From: Chitinophagaceae bacterium
Lineage (GTDB): Bacteria; Bacteroidota; Bacteroidia; Chitinophagales; Chitinophagaceae
Length of the DNA: 64,000 nucleotides
Assembly: GCA_947488765.1 (NCBI GenBank)
Contig: CANLAE010000003.1
Span: 1-64,000 of the forward strand
Direction of reading: 5' to 3'
The notes under the pieces are model-generated. The model ran no database searches, was not told where the DNA came from, and saw only the letters and a list, made by a program, of their open reading frames with translations. The translations under genes and the position numbers were made by a program. How positions within the stretch are numbered: the first letter of the stretch is position 1; each line of letters begins with the position of its first letter. Positions 2,851 to 45,926 of the stretch are shown in pieces.

Positions 2851-3360
2851 ATGAAAGGATTAACCATACAAAAAATTATTTCTTATATCTTAATACCAAT
2901 AGGAATTTTATTAGCTTTGAATGTTATAAATGGATTGATAATTGCAATTTCCAATCCAATGCTTTTGTTTGTTCATTTTATAATTGCGTGTGTACCTATT
3001 TACATTTTTAGTAGCACTTATTTTTTATTTAATGGGATTATAAAAGAAAAAAAATGTAAGGCCTCTTTGAAGGATTGGATAAAAATAAATGCTTACGTAT
3101 CAATTATATTTATTGCAATCATTTTAATTTGTTCAATTAGTGTTCTCATGATTCTTAGTTCACCTCAGATTTTGCAGGAAGTTTTCAATAAAATGCCCAC
3201 GAATCAATTTCAAGGTGGTGCGCCATCACAAACTGAATTAATTTATTTATTAAAAATATTCGTCTCAATAATGCTACCTTTTAGCATACTATTATTACTG
3301 CATATTATCAAAACTTTCAAATTAATTAAAAAATATCCTTCGGCATTTATTGATGAATAA
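2851..3360 (+). CDS. Small four-helix membrane protein of unknown function
   Basis: About 169 residues with four predicted membrane helices (about 8-30, 38-62, 85-110 and 135-158) and a Gln/Pro-containing loop before the last one. I chose ATG 2851; an upstream TTG at 2830 would add seven polar residues and seems less likely. No motif I recognise. The gene lies just upstream of rarA on the same strand (26 bp gap), so the two may share a promoter. No function is proposed. Confidence 0.6.
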   Translation: MKGLTIQKIISYILIPIGILLALNVINGLIIAISNPMLLFVHFIIACVPIYIFSSTYFLFNGIIKEKKCKASLKDWIKINAYVSIIFIAIILICSISVLMILSSPQILQEVFNKMPTNQFQGGAPSQTELIYLLKIFVSIMLPFSILLLLHIIKTFKLIKKYPSAFIDE

Positions 3361-5466: not shown

Positions 5467-6753
5467 TTACAGAATTGATTTCTTTTTTGAAGTTATAAAA
5501 GTAATGCAAATCCAAGCCAATGGAACCATTACTGCTGCTAAAATAAAAAAACTATTGTAGTTTGTTTTTGTAAGAATTGGTACTAATAATGTTGTTATCA
5601 ACGTGCCTATAACAGCCGCTGTACCGCCCATACCGGCAACGGTTCCAACATTTTTCCCATTGAAATAATCACTTGGTAATGTTTGTAAATTTCCAATGAT
5701 AAATTGAAACCCCAATAATGTTACACTAATTAATGCTATTGTAAAATTGATGTGTTCTTTTAAATCATTTAAATGATAAACAATTGCTCCAAGTGCTACT
5801 AACATTATAGTGGAGCCAATTGTAATTGCTTTTTTTCTTGCATGAACCGGTTGTGTTCCTTTTCTGATTTGATGTGAAGAATAATAACCGCCGATTAAGC
5901 TACCCATTGCAGCGAACAAAAATGGAACCCATGCAAAAGAACCTACTTGTTTAATATCAAATGCAAATTGTTCTTTTAAAAATGTAGGTAACCAAGTAAC
6001 AAACAACCACCAAACAGGATCGATAAAAAATCTTGCAACTATGATTCCCCAAGTATTACGAAATTGAAACAATTCTTTCCATGAGTATACTTTTGTTTCT
6101 GTTATTTTAGTTGTTGTGTTAACAGCAGCATCTAAAATGTGTTCTTGTTCTTCTTTGGTAATCCAAGGATGTTTATCAGGGGTATTTTTATTGATAATTA
6201 TCCAGGGAATAATCCAGATGAATCCCAATAATGCAATTCCTGCAAAAGTTCCTTTCCAACCAAATGCAATGTATAATGTAGCAATAAAAGGAGCAGCTAC
6301 AACACCACCTAAAGAAGCCCCTGCACCAAATATTCCTTGAGCAATTGCCCTTTCTTTTGCGGGAAACCATTCTGCATTACTTTTTGTTGCACCAGGCCAA
6401 TTACCTGCTTCAAAAAAACCAAGAAGAAATCTAAAGACGCTGAATGATGCCAATGTTTTTGCAATAGCATGTAATGCAATAGATACACTCCAACCTGCAA
6501 TAGAAATTACAAATCCTAATCTTGTACCAATCGCATCCATTAATTTGCCAGTAAAGGTTTGCCCTAAGGCATAAGCAATCATAAAAAATGTGGTGATATA
6601 TGCTAAGGCTTGTTTGTTATCGGCATCAAGAATTCCAAAATCTTTATAAATATAAGGCCACATAATATTGATAGCACTTCTATCTATATAATTGATGATC
6701 GTTGCAATACCAATTAAAGAAATAATCCACCAGCGCAGTCCTTTTATTTTCAT
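5467..6753 (-). CDS. MFS hexuronate/aldonate transporter (anion:cation symporter type)
   Basis: A 428-residue, 12-helix permease. The opening segment has the ACS-family pattern INYIDRSAINIMWPY, and the loop between helices 2 and 3 has GKLMDAIGTRLG. Helix 4 carries GFFEAGNWPGATK, a conserved feature of ExuT/GudP-type transporters. It probably moves unsaturated or keto uronates from periplasm to cytoplasm after lyases have cut alginate. The position between the jelly-roll lyase and a DEH-reductase-like SDR supports this. The exact substrate cannot be read from the sequence. Confidence 0.85.
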   Translation of the reverse strand: MKIKGLRWWIISLIGIATIINYIDRSAINIMWPYIYKDFGILDADNKQALAYITTFFMIAYALGQTFTGKLMDAIGTRLGFVISIAGWSVSIALHAIAKTLASFSVFRFLLGFFEAGNWPGATKSNAEWFPAKERAIAQGIFGAGASLGGVVAAPFIATLYIAFGWKGTFAGIALLGFIWIIPWIIINKNTPDKHPWITKEEQEHILDAAVNTTTKITETKVYSWKELFQFRNTWGIIVARFFIDPVWWLFVTWLPTFLKEQFAFDIKQVGSFAWVPFLFAAMGSLIGGYYSSHQIRKGTQPVHARKKAITIGSTIMLVALGAIVYHLNDLKEHINFTIALISVTLLGFQFIIGNLQTLPSDYFNGKNVGTVAGMGGTAAVIGTLITTLLVPILTKTNYNSFFILAAVMVPLAWICITFITSKKKSIL

Positions 6754-36189: not shown

Positions 36190-38037
36190 TTATTTTGATT
36201 TAATTTCCTGACATAGCTGGTTAAAAGATTTATTCCCTTCATATTTCAGGATTTTAGAATGACGACCTTCTAAATGGATAGGATTTTGTTTTCCAAAATC
36301 TTGCAATGCGTATTCTTTAGATTTATCGCTCCAATTAAAAATGCCCAAATAAATATCTTTACCCTTACGAGCAATGATTAACTCAAAGCCATCACTTTTA
36401 TTAGTTGCATGTTTCCAAAAATCCAATGGCACAGTCTCATCCATAACAGGAAACTCAAAAACATCATTTATAAGTGCCTTACGCTCTGATCGAAGTGTTA
36501 CTAAGTTATCGCTATGCAAACGTGCTGTACCGTACAATTTGTTGAAGTCAGCCCACATTTGTGCCTCATTCATTGTCATACTGCCACCATTTTTAATTTT
36601 TTCTTGAGATACCTTTTCATCTTCATCAATACCTTCTCTGAAAACTAGGTAATCAGCATCGCCATTAAATACTTTGCCACTTAAATAGAAGTTACTTAAG
36701 TTGGCAAGGCATCTTTCTGGAAAAGCTTCGTAAAGTGGATGAATATCACCACCAGTACGCATACCATCAACAAAACCAATGCATGGCCCAAAAACAGCAG
36801 AGCAACCAAGAAAATAAGAATCATTACCCATCGATTCCCGCATGGTTTTCATCCCTAGACGGAAACGTTCAACACTTGTGATAGTAGGATCATAGGCTTT
36901 GATGGTTTTAACATTTTTGTTTTTCTCCTTCACAAAGTCTTCTAATCCGTAGCGCATAAAGTCAATTTTAAAATAACGTACGCCCCAGTTATTTTTCATA
37001 TTTTTTATACAATCTTGAATATGTGCCCTTGCACCAGGATGAGAATAATCGAAATAAGTATTTTTCATTACTTTATCTGGCATTACAACGGTCTCAACTA
37101 TTAAATTTCCATCTTGATCATGCAAAAAATATTCAGGATGCGTTTTACAAATCTCCGAATTAGCATCACCTCTAAATCCATCAAAATGTAAGCCTGGTGT
37201 TTTACCTTCTGAGGTAATACGTGAAATTATTTGTTTAAGACCGCCTGGCAACATATTAGGTCGCAAGGTTTTATAATCACCACGTTCTGTCCACCAACCG
37301 CCATCAATTTGAACCATATTTGCCTTTGGTGCAAGCTTATTTAACTGATCCATATTGTCATAAATGTCTTTTGGTGTAAACACCCTACCGTAATAATCCC
37401 AAGTAGCCCAACCTTTAAAATCTGCTGGTTTAAGTGTCGTTATTTTATTTTCTGCTGCAATAGCTGTACCAAATTGATTCAATAAATCAAGCCAATTATT
37501 GGTACGTTTTAATACGATTTGTTCGTACTGAATAGTTTGACCGGGTTTAAGTTGTTTGCCTTCGCCATTAGACCATATTTCAAAAACACCATCTTTTTGA
37601 ATGAAATTTGGCAGGAAAATACGCCATGATAGAGAACCTGCGAAAACATACTGCCCATCTGCAAGACGAACCATTTCGTACATTCTACTAGAGCTTTTTT
37701 TGGTTTGAGTGGCGATAGTTTGGCGTAACAACGGTGTTTGACCCATACAGCTACCACCATACACCATTTCCAAATTGTCGGTTAGTATTTCGTTAATTGG
37801 TATACTAACACTTATTTTTTCAATTGTAAGTGGCAGTTGTCCTTTGTTAGAAAGCGAAATCATCAATCGTTGAAATCCATTCGCTTGGTCTTTTAAAGTT
37901 TGTGTAGTTGTTACTGGCTGGTTTGCTGTTACATTCACCTTGATATTATTCCATGTTTTTGGTGTTTGTGCATAAGCCAAAAAGTTTCCGAACATCGTTA
38001 TTAATAATAAAATTGCAAATTTTCTTTTCATAATCAT
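36190..38037 (-). CDS. Exported alpha-galactosidase-like enzyme (GH36/GH27-like, first copy)
   Basis: A 615-residue protein with signal peptide (1-24). An N-terminal beta-sandwich is followed by a TIM barrel with MVQIDGGWW, the nucleophile motif YFKIDF (Asp359), the acid/base motif RTGGD (Asp431), and a short C-terminal beta domain. This fits clan GH-D alpha-galactosidases. With GalM/GalK/GalT and the SSS transporter in the same locus, release of D-galactose from an alpha-linked galactan is likely. Closest family (GH36 or GH27) is not settled. It lies 84 bp after paralogue P2. Confidence 0.82.
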   Translation of the reverse strand: MIMKRKFAILLLITMFGNFLAYAQTPKTWNNIKVNVTANQPVTTTQTLKDQANGFQRLMISLSNKGQLPLTIEKISVSIPINEILTDNLEMVYGGSCMGQTPLLRQTIATQTKKSSSRMYEMVRLADGQYVFAGSLSWRIFLPNFIQKDGVFEIWSNGEGKQLKPGQTIQYEQIVLKRTNNWLDLLNQFGTAIAAENKITTLKPADFKGWATWDYYGRVFTPKDIYDNMDQLNKLAPKANMVQIDGGWWTERGDYKTLRPNMLPGGLKQIISRITSEGKTPGLHFDGFRGDANSEICKTHPEYFLHDQDGNLIVETVVMPDKVMKNTYFDYSHPGARAHIQDCIKNMKNNWGVRYFKIDFMRYGLEDFVKEKNKNVKTIKAYDPTITSVERFRLGMKTMRESMGNDSYFLGCSAVFGPCIGFVDGMRTGGDIHPLYEAFPERCLANLSNFYLSGKVFNGDADYLVFREGIDEDEKVSQEKIKNGGSMTMNEAQMWADFNKLYGTARLHSDNLVTLRSERKALINDVFEFPVMDETVPLDFWKHATNKSDGFELIIARKGKDIYLGIFNWSDKSKEYALQDFGKQNPIHLEGRHSKILKYEGNKSFNQLCQEIKSK

Positions 38038-38121: not shown

Positions 38122-39846
38122 TTACTTTCTTTCTACTTCTATAATATGAAAAATGAAATCCTTTTGGCTGGTATTAATCAGTGCAATATCTGAACCTCTA
38201 GGGCCACCTTTTTTCATAATAGGATCGGATACTGTAAAATAATCTTCACGCCAAGTATTTGTACCTTTACCTGTGAAAGTTTTACCAGTTTTCAAAGTTT
38301 TACCACCTGCATCGTAGCAAAAATTCCATGAACCTGTGTTGTTATCAAGCCACACAATTTTAAATGCTAGGGTTTTTGCTTTGGTTGTTTTAAAAAAATC
38401 ATCGTGAAATTTAAAGAAGAGGGAATCTTTTCTAGTAGCGTGTTCAAAACCACGTGCAGATAGACCATAAGGTTTGTCTTTGGGACCAATATGCCACCAA
38501 CCTACACTGGTTTCAACTTTATCAATTGGAAATAAATAGAGGTTGTAGTCATCATCTTCACAATTCCAACCCACATCGTTGTATCCTTTTCTATTTCTAC
38601 TAGCGAGTGATCCAACTAATGTTTTTTCCAAATCTTCCACAATGGCTCCACGACTAGCAAATACCGCACATATTTTTTGTACTCTATCTGTATTATTCCT
38701 TGTAGCTGCTCCATATTTATTTTCAGGAAAACGGATTTTATCATCTGCATTTAGTTGATCTCTCAATGCACAAAAGGCAACCGGTGAGCGATCAGGATAT
38801 TTATAGCCGGCATATTTATCAAAAATATCGAGTGCTTGGTAGAGCTTCGGATTCTCTAATACATTTTGTGGAATATTCCAGATATCCAAACCTGCATCCA
38901 ATGCAGACAAAGCACTCCAGTATAAATTTTGTAGTGAATCTTTCACAAACCACTTGTGACTCCACATGGTTTCGCCTTCGCCACGACTAAAAACAGGACG
39001 CTGCAAAATATTTTTATCTGTATCCCAGGGTCTAAAAAGACTGTTCTTTTCTTTTGTGTTATTCGAACCGTAAAAATGTGATGCTACTCCTTTTTTATTA
39101 ACAAAACCGGGATATTCTCTTGCACCCCAATCCATATCTACGGTATGGATTAGCAAGGGTATTTCTGGTAGCCCATTTGATTTATTAGTAAATGCATTTA
39201 TTGTAAATTTCCTTATATAGGCTTGATAGACCGGCCATTCCGTTTTTTTGTCAACTTTGTATTTAGGATTAACAGGATCCCCTTTATAGCAATATCCATC
39301 ACCAGTTGAGCCTTCAACTACTTGATGAAACAAAATATATTTAAATAAACTGTCAGGTAAACTTCTAAGATGATTGGCTACTTGCGTAATAATTCGCTCG
39401 GAATAAAATTTGTAGTTTGAATCTAATGGATAGGCATTATAAGAAAAGTTTTTGTCCGTTTTAAAGGTCTTTATTTCCACTTTAGGAACACCATTTTCAT
39501 ACAACCAATCGGGTTCAGTAGGATTCAACCATATCAATGTAAACACATACTTTTTATGAGCAGCAGCCTTTTTTATAACATCATCAATAATATCCCAGTT
39601 TACAAAACCTTCTTTAGGTTCTAACTCATTCCAACCTACTACAATGGGAATGCCACGCATTTTAGAATACGTTTCATTGGGAAGTATTTTTTCATTCCAT
39701 TTATTTGGTGTTCCTCCCCAAGAGTACCAACACCAAACTCCACAAGCATCTTTGGGAAAAATACCTGGAATTCTTGTTTCGTTTTTTTGAGAGTAACTTA
39801 AAGTAAATAAGATTGAGCAAACAACTAATAAAACATTTTTTTTCAT
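38122..39846 (-). CDS. Exported GH42-like (clan GH-A-like) protein, paralogue P2
   Basis: A 574-residue protein with signal peptide (1-19). The barrel opens with GWNELEPKEGFVNWDIIDD. Strand 4 reads VVEGSTGDGYCYKG (Glu178, Asp183), and strand 7 SRGEGE (candidate nucleophile Glu290). The C-terminal beta-sandwich ends with LINTSQKDFIFHIIEVERK. The residue after TGD is Gly instead of Glu, but a Glu occurs five positions before the Asp. It begins the unit P2, alpha-galactosidase, P1, FGE and has the conserved regulatory motif 125 bp upstream of its start codon. Confidence 0.72.
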   Translation of the reverse strand: MKKNVLLVVCSILFTLSYSQKNETRIPGIFPKDACGVWCWYSWGGTPNKWNEKILPNETYSKMRGIPIVVGWNELEPKEGFVNWDIIDDVIKKAAAHKKYVFTLIWLNPTEPDWLYENGVPKVEIKTFKTDKNFSYNAYPLDSNYKFYSERIITQVANHLRSLPDSLFKYILFHQVVEGSTGDGYCYKGDPVNPKYKVDKKTEWPVYQAYIRKFTINAFTNKSNGLPEIPLLIHTVDMDWGAREYPGFVNKKGVASHFYGSNNTKEKNSLFRPWDTDKNILQRPVFSRGEGETMWSHKWFVKDSLQNLYWSALSALDAGLDIWNIPQNVLENPKLYQALDIFDKYAGYKYPDRSPVAFCALRDQLNADDKIRFPENKYGAATRNNTDRVQKICAVFASRGAIVEDLEKTLVGSLASRNRKGYNDVGWNCEDDDYNLYLFPIDKVETSVGWWHIGPKDKPYGLSARGFEHATRKDSLFFKFHDDFFKTTKAKTLAFKIVWLDNNTGSWNFCYDAGGKTLKTGKTFTGKGTNTWREDYFTVSDPIMKKGGPRGSDIALINTSQKDFIFHIIEVERK

Positions 39847-39997: not shown

Positions 39998-40096
39998 AGA
40001 TTACATCAAGCAGCATTTTATTGGTATAAAACCAGCAGACTGCCATTTAATATAGATTAAATAAAGTAGAACCCTACCCATATTTACAAAAAGAAA

Positions 40097-40136
40097 AGCA
40101 ATCAATAAAGCAGTAATTGCTGCTTTATTGATTGCT
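40097..40136 (-). terminator. 17-bp perfect hairpin terminator after the P3 gene
   Basis: AGCAATCAATAAAGCAG (40097-40113) and CTGCTTTATTGATTGCT (40120-40136) pair without mismatch around a 6-nt loop and are followed by a T-rich run on the minus strand. The 451-bp gap 39847-40297 thus holds this terminator, the relic at 40204-40297 and the promoter with motif A. Confidence 0.9.
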
Positions 40137-40203
40137 CAGTTGTTCATTTTCGTTTTTATTAAATGAGAATAATTATAGCTTCACAGTAATGCTTTTATTG
40201 CGT

Positions 40204-40297
40204 TCAATTTTTTTTGTTATTTTTAAGTTGAGCAAACCCTAAGTTCATAGAATCATCATCATCTTTAAAAGGCTTGGCTTGATTTACAAAATACGAT
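40204..40297 (-). pseudogene. Relic of a sulfatase-type C-terminal tail
   Basis: Just after the P3 stop codon, a different frame reads KSYFVNQAKPFKDDDDSMN and ends near 40204. It matches EYFVKQAKDFKEEDDSMSE in the tail of the sulfatase at 44016-45443; at DNA level 42 of 49 bases agree (40246-40294 with 44100-44148). The Lys-rich end of P3 continues into it after a one-base frame shift. Confidence 0.7.
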
Positions 40298-42226
40298 TTA
40301 TCCTTTTTTATCTTTTTTTACCTTTTTATCTTTCTTATCTTTTTTCTGTTTGTCGCCTTCAATGGTATTTTCACCTTTACCATATTTAGTTCCTTTATTA
40401 TGGCCAGGAAAAGCACGATTCTCGGCCTGTGGAAGTAGTGCAGGCATATCTTTTTCGCCACGTTTTACTTCTATTATACTAAAAATATCATCTTTATCGT
40501 CTGTATTTATAAGTGCTAAGTCAGATCCATTAATGCCACCATAGCGAAATACAGCATCTTTAATTGTCACAGTTTCATGATGCCATTTTTTGTCGCCTTT
40601 ACCTGTAATATTAACTGCAGTTTTCATGGCTTTAGCCCCCCCATCATAATCCAACTTCCATTTTGAGCCCACTTCACCATCAAACCAAACAATATTTATA
40701 GTCATTACTTTAGGTTTTGCATCTTGCGAAAAGCCTTCATGTAGTTTAAAATACATAGCATCTTTTCCCGAAACATGTTCAAATCCACGTGCAAATCTGT
40801 CATAAATGGATGATGTAGAAGTTAATGGCCCATTTACCCTCCATAATGGGATAGATGTTTTATCAGCATCAATTTGATAAAGTAATCGAGAGTAATTGTC
40901 TGGCCAAATTTTCCAGCCTGCATCATTAAATCCATTTTGATTACCACGTTGTTTTACCTGTCCCATAGTCAACGCACTTTTATCGTCGTTTGCTGCTCCA
41001 TACTTAGCATATTCGGCAGTGATTTTTTCCATTCGCTCTATATTTCCATGAGAGGCAGTTCCGTACTTATCCTCTGGATAAGCCTTCGTATCGGCTGCAT
41101 TCAAACCTTTATGTAAAGCACAGAAAGCATTGGTAGCTTTCTCAGGGTGTATTTGCCCTGCATACTTGTTGAAAAAATAGAAAGAATAATCAAAACCTTG
41201 TTCCTTGCTAACCTTCAAAGCTCCGCTTGTGACATCCCAAACACTTTGACCGGCATTCAATGCGTTAATTGCACCCCAGTAAAAGTTGAGTTGAACATTT
41301 ATTTGATACCAAGGACGGGTCCAGGTTTGGTCCATCTCGGAACGACGAAATAATGTAACCCCTTTTGGGTCGACTAGATAAGGCAAAAATGTATTTACTG
41401 CATCAATTTCTCCACTTAAATGATGTCCTCTTGAAAGTGCTCCATTTTTGATACCAAAACCATCTTTGAGGTTTTTAATTGCCCAATCCCATTCTTGAAC
41501 AAAATCACTTTTCCCGTCTTCAGTTTGAGGTTCAAGATTATTGAGAAGCATGCTAATATTCAATCCTGATTTTTTACCAAACAATTTATCATGCAAGGCA
41601 AAGGTTTCAAGACGGAATTCTCTCCATTTTTCACTTTTCACTGGTAAAGAATAATTATTATCTATAGGTTCGCCTTTGTAGGCACACTCATCTCCTGTAC
41701 ATCCTGTTTTAACTTGAATAAATGAAATAGTTCTTATTTTCTCTTTAGAAAAGCTACTGATGTGCTTAGCCACTTCTGTTAGAAAACGGTGATAATACTT
41801 TTTATATTCTGGAGATATATAATAAGGATAATAATCAAATGCACCTGGGTTTTTACTAGCGTTTGTAATTACTTTTGGCACCCCTTTTTCATAAACCCAA
41901 TCTGGTGTTTTAGGTCCTGCTGCAAACGAAATATATAACGAAATTTTTTCTTTATAGGCTCTTTCAATGGCCTTATCTAATATAGACCAGTCATACACTT
42001 CAGGCGTTTTCTCAACTTCATTCCAAGGAAAATCACAAGATGTACCTTTTAAAAATGGATACTGCTTGTTATCCATTGCTTCTCCACGATCCCAAACACC
42101 AAAAGAGCTAGGTTGTGGACCTACCTGACTTATAGCTATGTTGGAGAAAGCAATGAGGGCTATAAGGATAACTTTTCTTGCAAAAAAAACGAAATTTCTT
42201 CCTTTAATATTCATGATTCTATTCAT
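40298..42226 (-). CDS. Exported GH42-like (clan GH-A-like) protein, paralogue P3, with Lys-rich tail
   Basis: A 642-residue protein with signal peptide (about 1-33; a start at Met5 is equally possible). The barrel opens with FPWNEVEKTPEVYDWSILD. Strand 4 has TGCTGDE (Asp179, Glu180), strand 7 RRSEMD (candidate nucleophile Glu297). The C-terminal beta-sandwich ends with LINTDDKDDIFSIIEVKRG. A further 55 residues follow that the other paralogues lack, ending in a Lys/Asp-rich run (KQKKDKKDKKVKKDKKG). The tail stops where a frame-shifted sulfatase-tail relic begins. It follows two sulfatase genes. Confidence 0.72.
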   Translation of the reverse strand: MNRIMNIKGRNFVFFARKVILIALIAFSNIAISQVGPQPSSFGVWDRGEAMDNKQYPFLKGTSCDFPWNEVEKTPEVYDWSILDKAIERAYKEKISLYISFAAGPKTPDWVYEKGVPKVITNASKNPGAFDYYPYYISPEYKKYYHRFLTEVAKHISSFSKEKIRTISFIQVKTGCTGDECAYKGEPIDNNYSLPVKSEKWREFRLETFALHDKLFGKKSGLNISMLLNNLEPQTEDGKSDFVQEWDWAIKNLKDGFGIKNGALSRGHHLSGEIDAVNTFLPYLVDPKGVTLFRRSEMDQTWTRPWYQINVQLNFYWGAINALNAGQSVWDVTSGALKVSKEQGFDYSFYFFNKYAGQIHPEKATNAFCALHKGLNAADTKAYPEDKYGTASHGNIERMEKITAEYAKYGAANDDKSALTMGQVKQRGNQNGFNDAGWKIWPDNYSRLLYQIDADKTSIPLWRVNGPLTSTSSIYDRFARGFEHVSGKDAMYFKLHEGFSQDAKPKVMTINIVWFDGEVGSKWKLDYDGGAKAMKTAVNITGKGDKKWHHETVTIKDAVFRYGGINGSDLALINTDDKDDIFSIIEVKRGEKDMPALLPQAENRAFPGHNKGTKYGKGENTIEGDKQKKDKKDKKVKKDKKG

Positions 42227-44015: not shown

Positions 44016-45443
44016 CTAATTCTTTTCTTTTTTGCCGCTTTTATCTTTCTTCTCCTTATTCTTCTTTTTATATTTATTGTCTTTACCAGCATCTTCGCTC
44101 ATAGAATCATCTTCTTCTTTAAAATCTTTAGCTTGCTTTACAAAATACTCTGGGCGTGGCCCCTCGAATAATTTAAGTGCAGCCTCTAACTTTACTTTAG
44201 CCGCTTTGGCTTTGGTATTTAATGAAGTTTCGCTAAGTGGTGCGTTTTCATTATCATCTTTTTTTACATCAAAAAATTTACCATTTGTGTAAAGCTTATA
44301 GTTTGCATCATGTACAAACTCTGCCTTTGCAGTTTCACCACCACTTGGATTGTACCAAGAATACAGCCATTCACGTGGATTACCTTTTTCACCAAGTAAT
44401 TGAGGTAAAAAACTATGCCCATCTAACTTCAAATCTGTTGGAATTTTAACAGCTGCAGCTTCGCAAATGGTAGGTAAAAAGTCTGTTGCAGCAATCAAAT
44501 CGCCGGAAATTTTACCACTAGCAAAGTGACCAGGCCATGTACCAATTAAAGGCACATGCGTACCCCATTCGGTAGTTGCTCCCTTTCCCCCTTTTACGTC
44601 TTGGCCTTTAAATCTTGCTGGCATTCCTTTGGCAGTGCCATTATCGCCAAGAATTAATACCATTGTGTTCTCACGTATCTTTAATTCATCTAGCTTGGCA
44701 ATCAATTTACCAATGAGTTTATCAGTATAGTCTGTCATATCAGCAAAATGACCACTAGTGCCTTTCTTACCTTTTCCATTTTGTACTTGAAGATAATCTG
44801 GATTGTCTGGCGTAGCATCAAATGGTGCATGTGTAAGCATCATTGGGTAATAAAGAAAGAAAGGGACATCTTTCTTTCTAGTGATAAAATCGAGCGCATA
44901 ATCACTTACAATATCAGGGCCATATTCATTATTTGTATACTCAATTGATTTTCCATTAATGGCTATTTGAGGATTTTTATAACGCGGCGATTTTTTTAGT
45001 AAATGCCAAAGTGCATATTCATCAAACCCAAAATGCCCAGGATTGTCGTAGTTTTTACCTAATTGCCATTTGCCTGTAACACAGGTGGCGTAGCCTGCAT
45101 TTTTTAATAAATTACCAAAAGTCTTTTGCGTTAAATCGAGGCTACCAAAATTTGTATAGTTTCTACGATTGCTCATACCTGTCATCAACTCAACCCTTGT
45201 TGGTGTACAAAGTGGCTGCACATGACACTCTTCAAAACGTACACCTTTTGCAGCAAGCTGATCCATTATAGGCGTTCTATAACTTTCACCACCATTAGCC
45301 GTAACATTTTCGTAACCAAAGTCATCTATTAAAATGAGTACAATATTGGGTTTGGGTTGTGGTTTTGCACCTTGTGCAAATATTGCTGCTGGAAAACCAA
45401 TCAACATCATTAATAGAGTGGCAACTTTTTTTATCATATTCAA
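44016..45443 (-). CDS. Exported S1-family sulfatase (Cys79) with Lys-rich tail
   Basis: A 475-residue protein, signal peptide 1-24. Motifs: LILIDDFGYENVTANGG, CTPTR with Cys79, and LILGDNGT. The C-terminus ends in a Lys-rich run (KYKKKNKEKKDKSGKKEKN) preceded by YFVKQAKDFKEEDDSM, the segment also found as a relic near 40.2 kb. It is an active-type sulfatase with respect to its Cys. It follows the terminator after the Spy-like gene and is followed 84 bp later by another sulfatase. Confidence 0.88.
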   Translation of the reverse strand: MNMIKKVATLLMMLIGFPAAIFAQGAKPQPKPNIVLILIDDFGYENVTANGGESYRTPIMDQLAAKGVRFEECHVQPLCTPTRVELMTGMSNRRNYTNFGSLDLTQKTFGNLLKNAGYATCVTGKWQLGKNYDNPGHFGFDEYALWHLLKKSPRYKNPQIAINGKSIEYTNNEYGPDIVSDYALDFITRKKDVPFFLYYPMMLTHAPFDATPDNPDYLQVQNGKGKKGTSGHFADMTDYTDKLIGKLIAKLDELKIRENTMVLILGDNGTAKGMPARFKGQDVKGGKGATTEWGTHVPLIGTWPGHFASGKISGDLIAATDFLPTICEAAAVKIPTDLKLDGHSFLPQLLGEKGNPREWLYSWYNPSGGETAKAEFVHDANYKLYTNGKFFDVKKDDNENAPLSETSLNTKAKAAKVKLEAALKLFEGPRPEYFVKQAKDFKEEDDSMSEDAGKDNKYKKKNKEKKDKSGKKEKN

Positions 45444-45521: not shown

Positions 45522-45926
45522 TTAATTTTCTTTTTCCTCTTTTTTGCCTTTTCCTTTACCACCTTCTTTGTTTTTCATCTTTTCTTTTTTTGCTTCAACC
45601 CAAGCATCAAATTTTACTTTTTGTTCATCAGTTAAAATGGCTTTGATACTTGCGTTAGCAGCTTCAGTAGTTGCTTTTGCTTCTTTTTTACCAGCCTTTT
45701 TATCACCAGCACTAGCCTTTGCTTTTAAGGTGTCTAATTTTGTAAGACTTTCTATTTGAACCGCTTTGATTTTTGAAGATTGATCTGCTGTTAAATTAAG
45801 TTCTGTTGTTAATTCTTTAACATAGATTGTTGCACGTTGTTCTGCATTTTTTTTGGGCTTACCATCTTGTGCAAAAACTGAAATTGTAGACAATGCTACT
45901 GCCAATACTAGAATTACTCTTTTCAT
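45522..45926 (-). CDS. Small exported Spy/CpxP-like protein with Lys-rich tail
   Basis: A 134-residue protein with signal peptide (1-19). Helical throughout, with LTADQSSKIKAVQ and ILTDEQKVKFDAW elements, the repeat type of LTxxQ (Spy/CpxP) envelope chaperones. The C-terminal 25 residues are mostly Lys, Gly and Glu. It sits between the SSS transporter gene and two sulfatase genes, so a chaperone for exported sulfatases is possible but only a guess. Sequence is too short for a firm family call. Confidence 0.6.
   Translation of the reverse strand: MKRVILVLAVALSTISVFAQDGKPKKNAEQRATIYVKELTTELNLTADQSSKIKAVQIESLTKLDTLKAKASAGDKKAGKKEAKATTEAANASIKAILTDEQKVKFDAWVEAKKEKMKNKEGGKGKGKKEEKEN

Follow-up and report, generated by a model that had tools for sequence, protein, structure and literature searches.

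The gene P3 of the Chitinophagaceae operon described here ends in a lysine-rich run and a stop codon, and the DNA directly beyond it, read one base out of frame, looks like the end of a sulfatase. This arrangement raises the question whether the piece once belonged to P3, whether it is the remainder of a sulfatase gene or whether it is due to an error in the sequence. The window, i.e. the whole stretch of 64,000 nucleotides which was analysed, carries on its minus strand the genes S2, S1, P3, P2 and M in this order (Table 1). The segment 40204-42226 comprises P3 plus the sulfatase-like piece, called the relic in the following.

Table 1. Features of the P3 region, with positions given in the numbering of the window
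Feature	Position	Strand	Basis or detail
M, melibiase-like	36190-38037	minus	
P2, GH42-like	38122-39846	minus	
Native upstream region of P2	39846-40098	minus	aligns to L012 10297-10556, partly to L026
Intrinsic terminator behind P3 and relic	40096-40137	minus	18-pair stem with T tail; inverted repeat I4
Relic, matching the final 29 codons plus stop of an S2-type sulfatase (YFVNQAKPFKDDDDSMNLGFAQLKNNKKN)	40204-40293	minus	+1 frame relative to P3
A-rich repeat coding for the Lys/Asp tail, presumed junction	40297-40345	minus	TRF, period 9 nt, 5.3 copies
P3, exported GH42-like enzyme, 642 aa, Lys/Asp-rich C-terminal tail	40298-42226	minus	ORF, PF02449
B-type part of P3 (about residues 420-642)	40301-40969	minus	sister to the F. 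luteum copy in L076, 100/98
Flavobacterium A-type part of P3 (about residues 20-418)	40970-42170	minus	identity scan, tree 100/100
S1 sulfatase, directly upstream of P3	42333-43985	minus	PF00884, 189 bits
S2 sulfatase	44016-45443	minus	PF00884, 165.5 bits (cut-off 25)
S2 C-terminal tail (YFVKQAKDFKEEDDSM and Lys-rich end), nearest match of the relic	44016-44147	minus	

P3 and its neighbours

The match of P3 to PF02449 is partial, with 27.8 bits (cut-off 21) over residues 65-155, corresponding to profile positions 31-122 of 376. The AlphaFold model of the protein is of low confidence overall (mean pLDDT 54), and residues 580-642 are disordered. As a distantly GH42-like protein in a sulfatase-rich locus, P3 resembles the GH42-like carrageenan enzymes of GH167 (PMC6923384); however, this likeness is drawn from the description of GH42-like enzymes in that paper, and among PDB sequences the best match of P3 was no better than E 0.14. 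Three more P3-like paralogues, 37-42% identical to P3, are found in tandem at 60492-66412 of contig C3.

The region from 36190 to 58135 contains sulfatases, GH42-like and melibiase-like enzymes and apparent galactose-pathway genes, including a putative uridylyltransferase (47812), galactokinase (48873) and mutarotase (50126), all named by eye, and its content suggests a sulfated-galactan locus. The translation of S2 has the CxPxR formylglycine motif in the form CTPTR, and the best solved match of this protein is a kappa-carrageenan sulfatase (9fo1).

The C-terminus of P3 reads GDKQKKDKKDKKVKKDKKG, the gene ending with KKDKKDKKVKKDKKG and a TAA stop. This TAA arises where a GATAAA unit of the 9-nt Lys/Asp repeat is read out of frame, and the frames of P3 and of the relic are offset by one base beside an A6 and an A7 run. 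An argument based on a DKS/DKA motif shared by Lys-rich ends was dropped, as these ends are too low in complexity to be aligned base by base.

The sulfatase-like piece behind P3

Continued in the +1 frame past the end of P3, the DNA encodes KKIKKDKSYFVNQAKPFKDDDDSMNLGFAQLKNNKKN followed by a stop. From stop to stop this frame has 37 aa, of which the relic proper runs from YFV to a TGA. In agreement with the sequence-only reading, which had described a Lys-rich end followed by a sulfatase-like tail one base out of frame, 42 of the 49 bases at 40246-40294 are the same as at 44100-44148 in S2. When the 49 bases were used as a query against the 64-kb window the second-best site had 28 bases alike, and shuffled versions of the query (n = 200) reached at most 32. 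By BLASTN the match to S2 lengthens to 87 nt (73%, E 5e-10), and at the protein level an S2-tail query gives a score of 67 with the relic DNA and of at most 29 with shuffled versions of it. The relic is the only one of the twenty-five intergenic stretches of the window to match another gene of the window, and its motif recurs in the 2.5 Mb genome only in S2.

The piece has several marks of a gene relic. Its homology to part of a functional gene, S2, is significant, while the start and the body of the gene are missing, with only 29 codons left and no catalytic domain nearby. The homology to S2 begins at YFV, which is residue 433 of 475, and the alignment of S2 with solved sulfatases goes no further than residue 420 and leaves the tail out. 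Nor is the piece conserved as part of P3 in the relatives described below. It precedes the operon terminator, whose region has a fold z of -3.1.

The sequence-only reading had taken the retained similarity as a sign that the event was recent or that the tail is useful, and neither point is borne out. The relic differs from the S2 of the window at 8 of 51 bases, which is like the difference between the S2 genes of the window and of L012 (7 of 51). Third codon positions account for five of these eight differences, too few to show coding constraint. Among the four S2 tails compared with the relic over these 51 bases, that of the window agrees at 43, the others at 38 (L076), 37 (L012) and 35 (L026).

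Relatives of P3 and of the sulfatases

Comparison of the region with related genomes, proposed with the initial observation, showed the relic to be a peculiarity of the window genome among the relatives compared. The YFV tail is present in none of the P3 proteins of 20 relatives, and in the DNA downstream of P3, scanned in 16 relatives with L021 to L024 outside the scan (the L021 contig ends close behind P3), the relic is absent, with scores at shuffle level. Two scores were borderline, 29 for L020 and 31 for L017, and show no likeness to the motif. Translations of 400 nt beyond P3 in L022, L023 and L024 are also free of a YFV tail. L012 and L026, both labelled Chitinophagaceae, keep the order S2-S1-P3-P2-M with the relic missing. 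None of 10 genomes of the same genus, 396 genomes from the family, 395 from the class and 400 from Flavobacterium contained a P3 closer than those already known.

The P3 relatives in Flavobacterium, Chitinophagaceae, Verrucomicrobiota and Planctomycetota mostly have Lys-rich ends, such as KKDKSND, KKDKTGDTEN or KKDKKK directly before the stop, and two acidobacterial ones have no such end. The closest relatives have their stop only after the repeat. In our reading the Lys-rich tail is the normal end of P3, and the one-base offset of what follows needs no special mechanism.

The distribution of the S2 tail is different. The native C-terminus of S2, YFVKQAKDFKEEDD, recurs on the S2 relatives encoded by L012 and L026, and L076 of Flavobacterium luteum encodes an S2 with the tail in the form YFSDQAQDFKEEDD; more distant S2 relatives, e.g. 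those of L058 and L060, are without it. A search of viral contigs with S2 gave no match. Since the relatives of P3 lack the piece and the Bacteroidota relatives of S2 carry the tail, the relic is, to judge by these comparisons, a fragment of a sulfatase joined to P3 and not an ancestral part of P3.

Sulfatase remnants beside P3 are also found elsewhere. Directly upstream of P3, the Flavobacterium loci L007 (about 3136-3254), L008 (7691-7822) and L010 (7727-7849) carry decaying C-terminal stubs of S1, which are interrupted by stops or frame breaks and differ in their state of decay; in L010 the stub reads ETNDLSTIHLNIAKKMKKQWLVW, a stop and KDCNKTEWTGKDRKEFK. L011 has a shorter S1 remnant at about 6020-6110. 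In the Verrucomicrobiota locus L017 an S1-type sulfatase is located directly behind P3. The stubs mean that the loss of a sulfatase body leaving its tail has happened independently, and gain and loss of sulfatases beside P3 is common in this family. Like the stubs, the relic is a C-terminal piece of a neighbouring sulfatase that presumably stayed beside P3 when the rest of the gene was lost, but it is of S2 type, lies downstream of P3, still has an open frame and is joined to the Lys-rich end. Literature on sulfatases with Lys-rich tails and on polysaccharide loci of mosaic structure was searched and yielded nothing relevant.

The mosaic structure of P3 bears on the origin of the relic. P3 is 67-68% identical to the syntenic copies of L012 and L026, against 78-86% for the S2, S1, P2 and M genes of the same loci, and 80-86% identical to the P3 of Flavobacterium. 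F. luteum (G710) has two P3 loci, copy A (L008) next to an S1 stub and copy B (L076) in a full S2-S1-P3 operon. The A-type part of the window gene is about 90% identical to Flavobacterium at the nucleotide level, with mostly 85-97% to copy A over residues from about 23 to 418, whereas residues from about 420 to 620 are about 70% identical to copy A and 78-86% to copy B. Out of 549 sites informative for A versus B, 458 fit a single best breakpoint at P3 nt 1251-1259 (about 40970 in the window). In two separate trees the 5' part falls inside the A clade (100/100) and the 3' part beside L076 (100/98). By its sequence P3 is demonstrably a recombinant of two P3 lineages. Copy B may likewise be a hybrid, as the branch of its 5' part in the tree is unusually long (0.55). 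Flavobacterium-type P3 loci also occur in L007, titled as a MAG of Rhizobium sp. Q54, and in L011, a Chitinophaga pinensis MAG; either these labels look wrong or the contigs look misbinned.

On the P2 side the upstream region of P2 aligns to L012 with 63% over 268 nt (E 6e-14) and is native. From this flank and from the 5' edge of the A-type tract near 42170, the foreign or rearranged block extends from about 42170 to about 40100, with the relic and the terminator inside it. Taken alone, the relic is an unremarkable scar of recombination; it is useful as a marker at the edge of a replacement with a hybrid gene at its core. About 1.2 kb of Flavobacterium-like DNA lie here in an operon of Chitinophagaceae in which the remaining genes share only about 80% identity with their closest relatives, which shows that sugar-degradation loci are rebuilt through sub-gene exchange across classes of Bacteroidota.

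Origin of the relic

We consider the relic to be probably a dead fragment of S2 type, joined by illegitimate recombination to the A-rich 3' end of P3. In the steps that we infer, the recombination that replaced or moved P3 would have linked the A-rich, Lys-coding 3' end of this gene with the last part of an S2-type gene, and in the same event the body of a sulfatase copy would have been lost, or else the S2 tail copied. The relic would thereby have stayed behind in the 3' untranslated part of the transcript and would do nothing there. This reading is based on the match of the relic to S2 tails, on L012 and L026 with their identical gene order and no relic, on the mosaic P3, on the S1 stubs of Flavobacterium and on the sulfatase directly behind P3 in L017. 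BLASTN similarity to all relatives stops at 40297-40306, within the Lys-rich repeat, which fits a join at low-complexity DNA; the native P2-side flank begins about 200 bases beyond the junction, with the terminator in between. It counts against a dead fragment that a whole S2-type sulfatase between P3 and P2 is not present in any relative, and that the 29 open codons, with five of the eight differences from S2 at third positions, look weakly coding-like, a pattern which could predate the join. Deletion of a sulfatase by recombination at A-rich repeats was one of two origins offered in the sequence-only reading, and with an S2-family piece, a recombinant P3 and the Flavobacterium stubs it is the one that fits better, although the deletion itself is a reconstructed step, and a small duplication of the S2 tail would leave an identical picture.

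The other origin offered there, that the tail was formerly part of P3 and was cut off by a slip in the A-rich repeat, has the off-frame stop and the one-base offset in its favour, but the P3 relatives examined, all of them without a YFV tail, show that the tail is not ancestral to P3. It would take an in-frame fusion of P3 to a sulfatase tail at the Lys-rich repeat and a later one-base slip in an A run that truncated P3 at the TAA. Such a course is suggested by the runs of six and seven A at the offset, by the Lys-Lys-Asp 9-nt repeat, which continues as GATAAATCG, and so into the frame of the relic, when one A is counted as surplus, and by the stop in the GATAAA unit, which falls short of the stops of the nearest relatives. 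A P3 with the YFV tail is, however, present in no relative, chance alone puts one join in three in frame, and the complexity of the repeat is too low for base-by-base alignment, so that dating the frame shift from the Lys-rich ends is ambiguous; we hold this course to be possible but unlikely. That the relic arose as a copy of the S2 tail of the window, by a short duplication or by template switching and with no sulfatase ever deleted, is a rather doubtful proposition. The S2 of the window is the nearest of the four tails, and the ends of P3 and S2 are both A-rich, but the difference among the tails rests on 51 bases, the divergence from S2, similar to that between the window and L012, means that a copy made within the lineage would have to be old, and the end of the relic (NLGFAQLKNNKKN) departs from the end of the S2 of the window. 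Another reading, in which the exported enzymes of the locus swap C-terminal modules (Lys-rich, YFVxQAKxFK) at A-rich Lys-coding repeats and the junction of P3 and relic is a swap one base out of frame, appears improbable to us.

An assembly or sequencing error in an A run that hides a real fusion of P3 and tail would account for an offset of a single base at such runs. Within 36 long frames (58 kb), however, there are 217 A/T runs of 6-9 bases and the genes look intact, and the Lys-rich end and stop of P3 match the usual ending of the family, so that an error is very improbable. Production of the tail by frameshifting or by slippage of RNA polymerase on the A runs, which would yield two forms of P3, has a precedent in AT-rich symbiont genomes, in which slippage at A tracts restores frames, tracts of at least 9 being counted (PMC3017870). 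The homopolymer frame shifts of Blochmannia vafer (PMC3017870) are similar in the one-base offset beside A runs in an AT-rich gene, but the runs of the window, six and seven A, are shorter, the downstream part is not a conserved part of the same protein and no correction is seen. The tail is unique to the window genome, and no relative has the downstream frame that, with a conserved slippery site, would speak for programmed frameshifting or slippage. With the relic placed before a terminator, like any 3' untranslated stretch, we give this explanation next to no credence.

Low-complexity Lys-rich C-terminal tails recur in the region, on P3, on S2 and on a CpxP/Spy-like protein of 134 aa (45522-45926), and on the P3 relatives L007 to L020 from Bacteroidota, Verrucomicrobiota and Planctomycetota. 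Perhaps they serve in binding to anionic polysaccharide.
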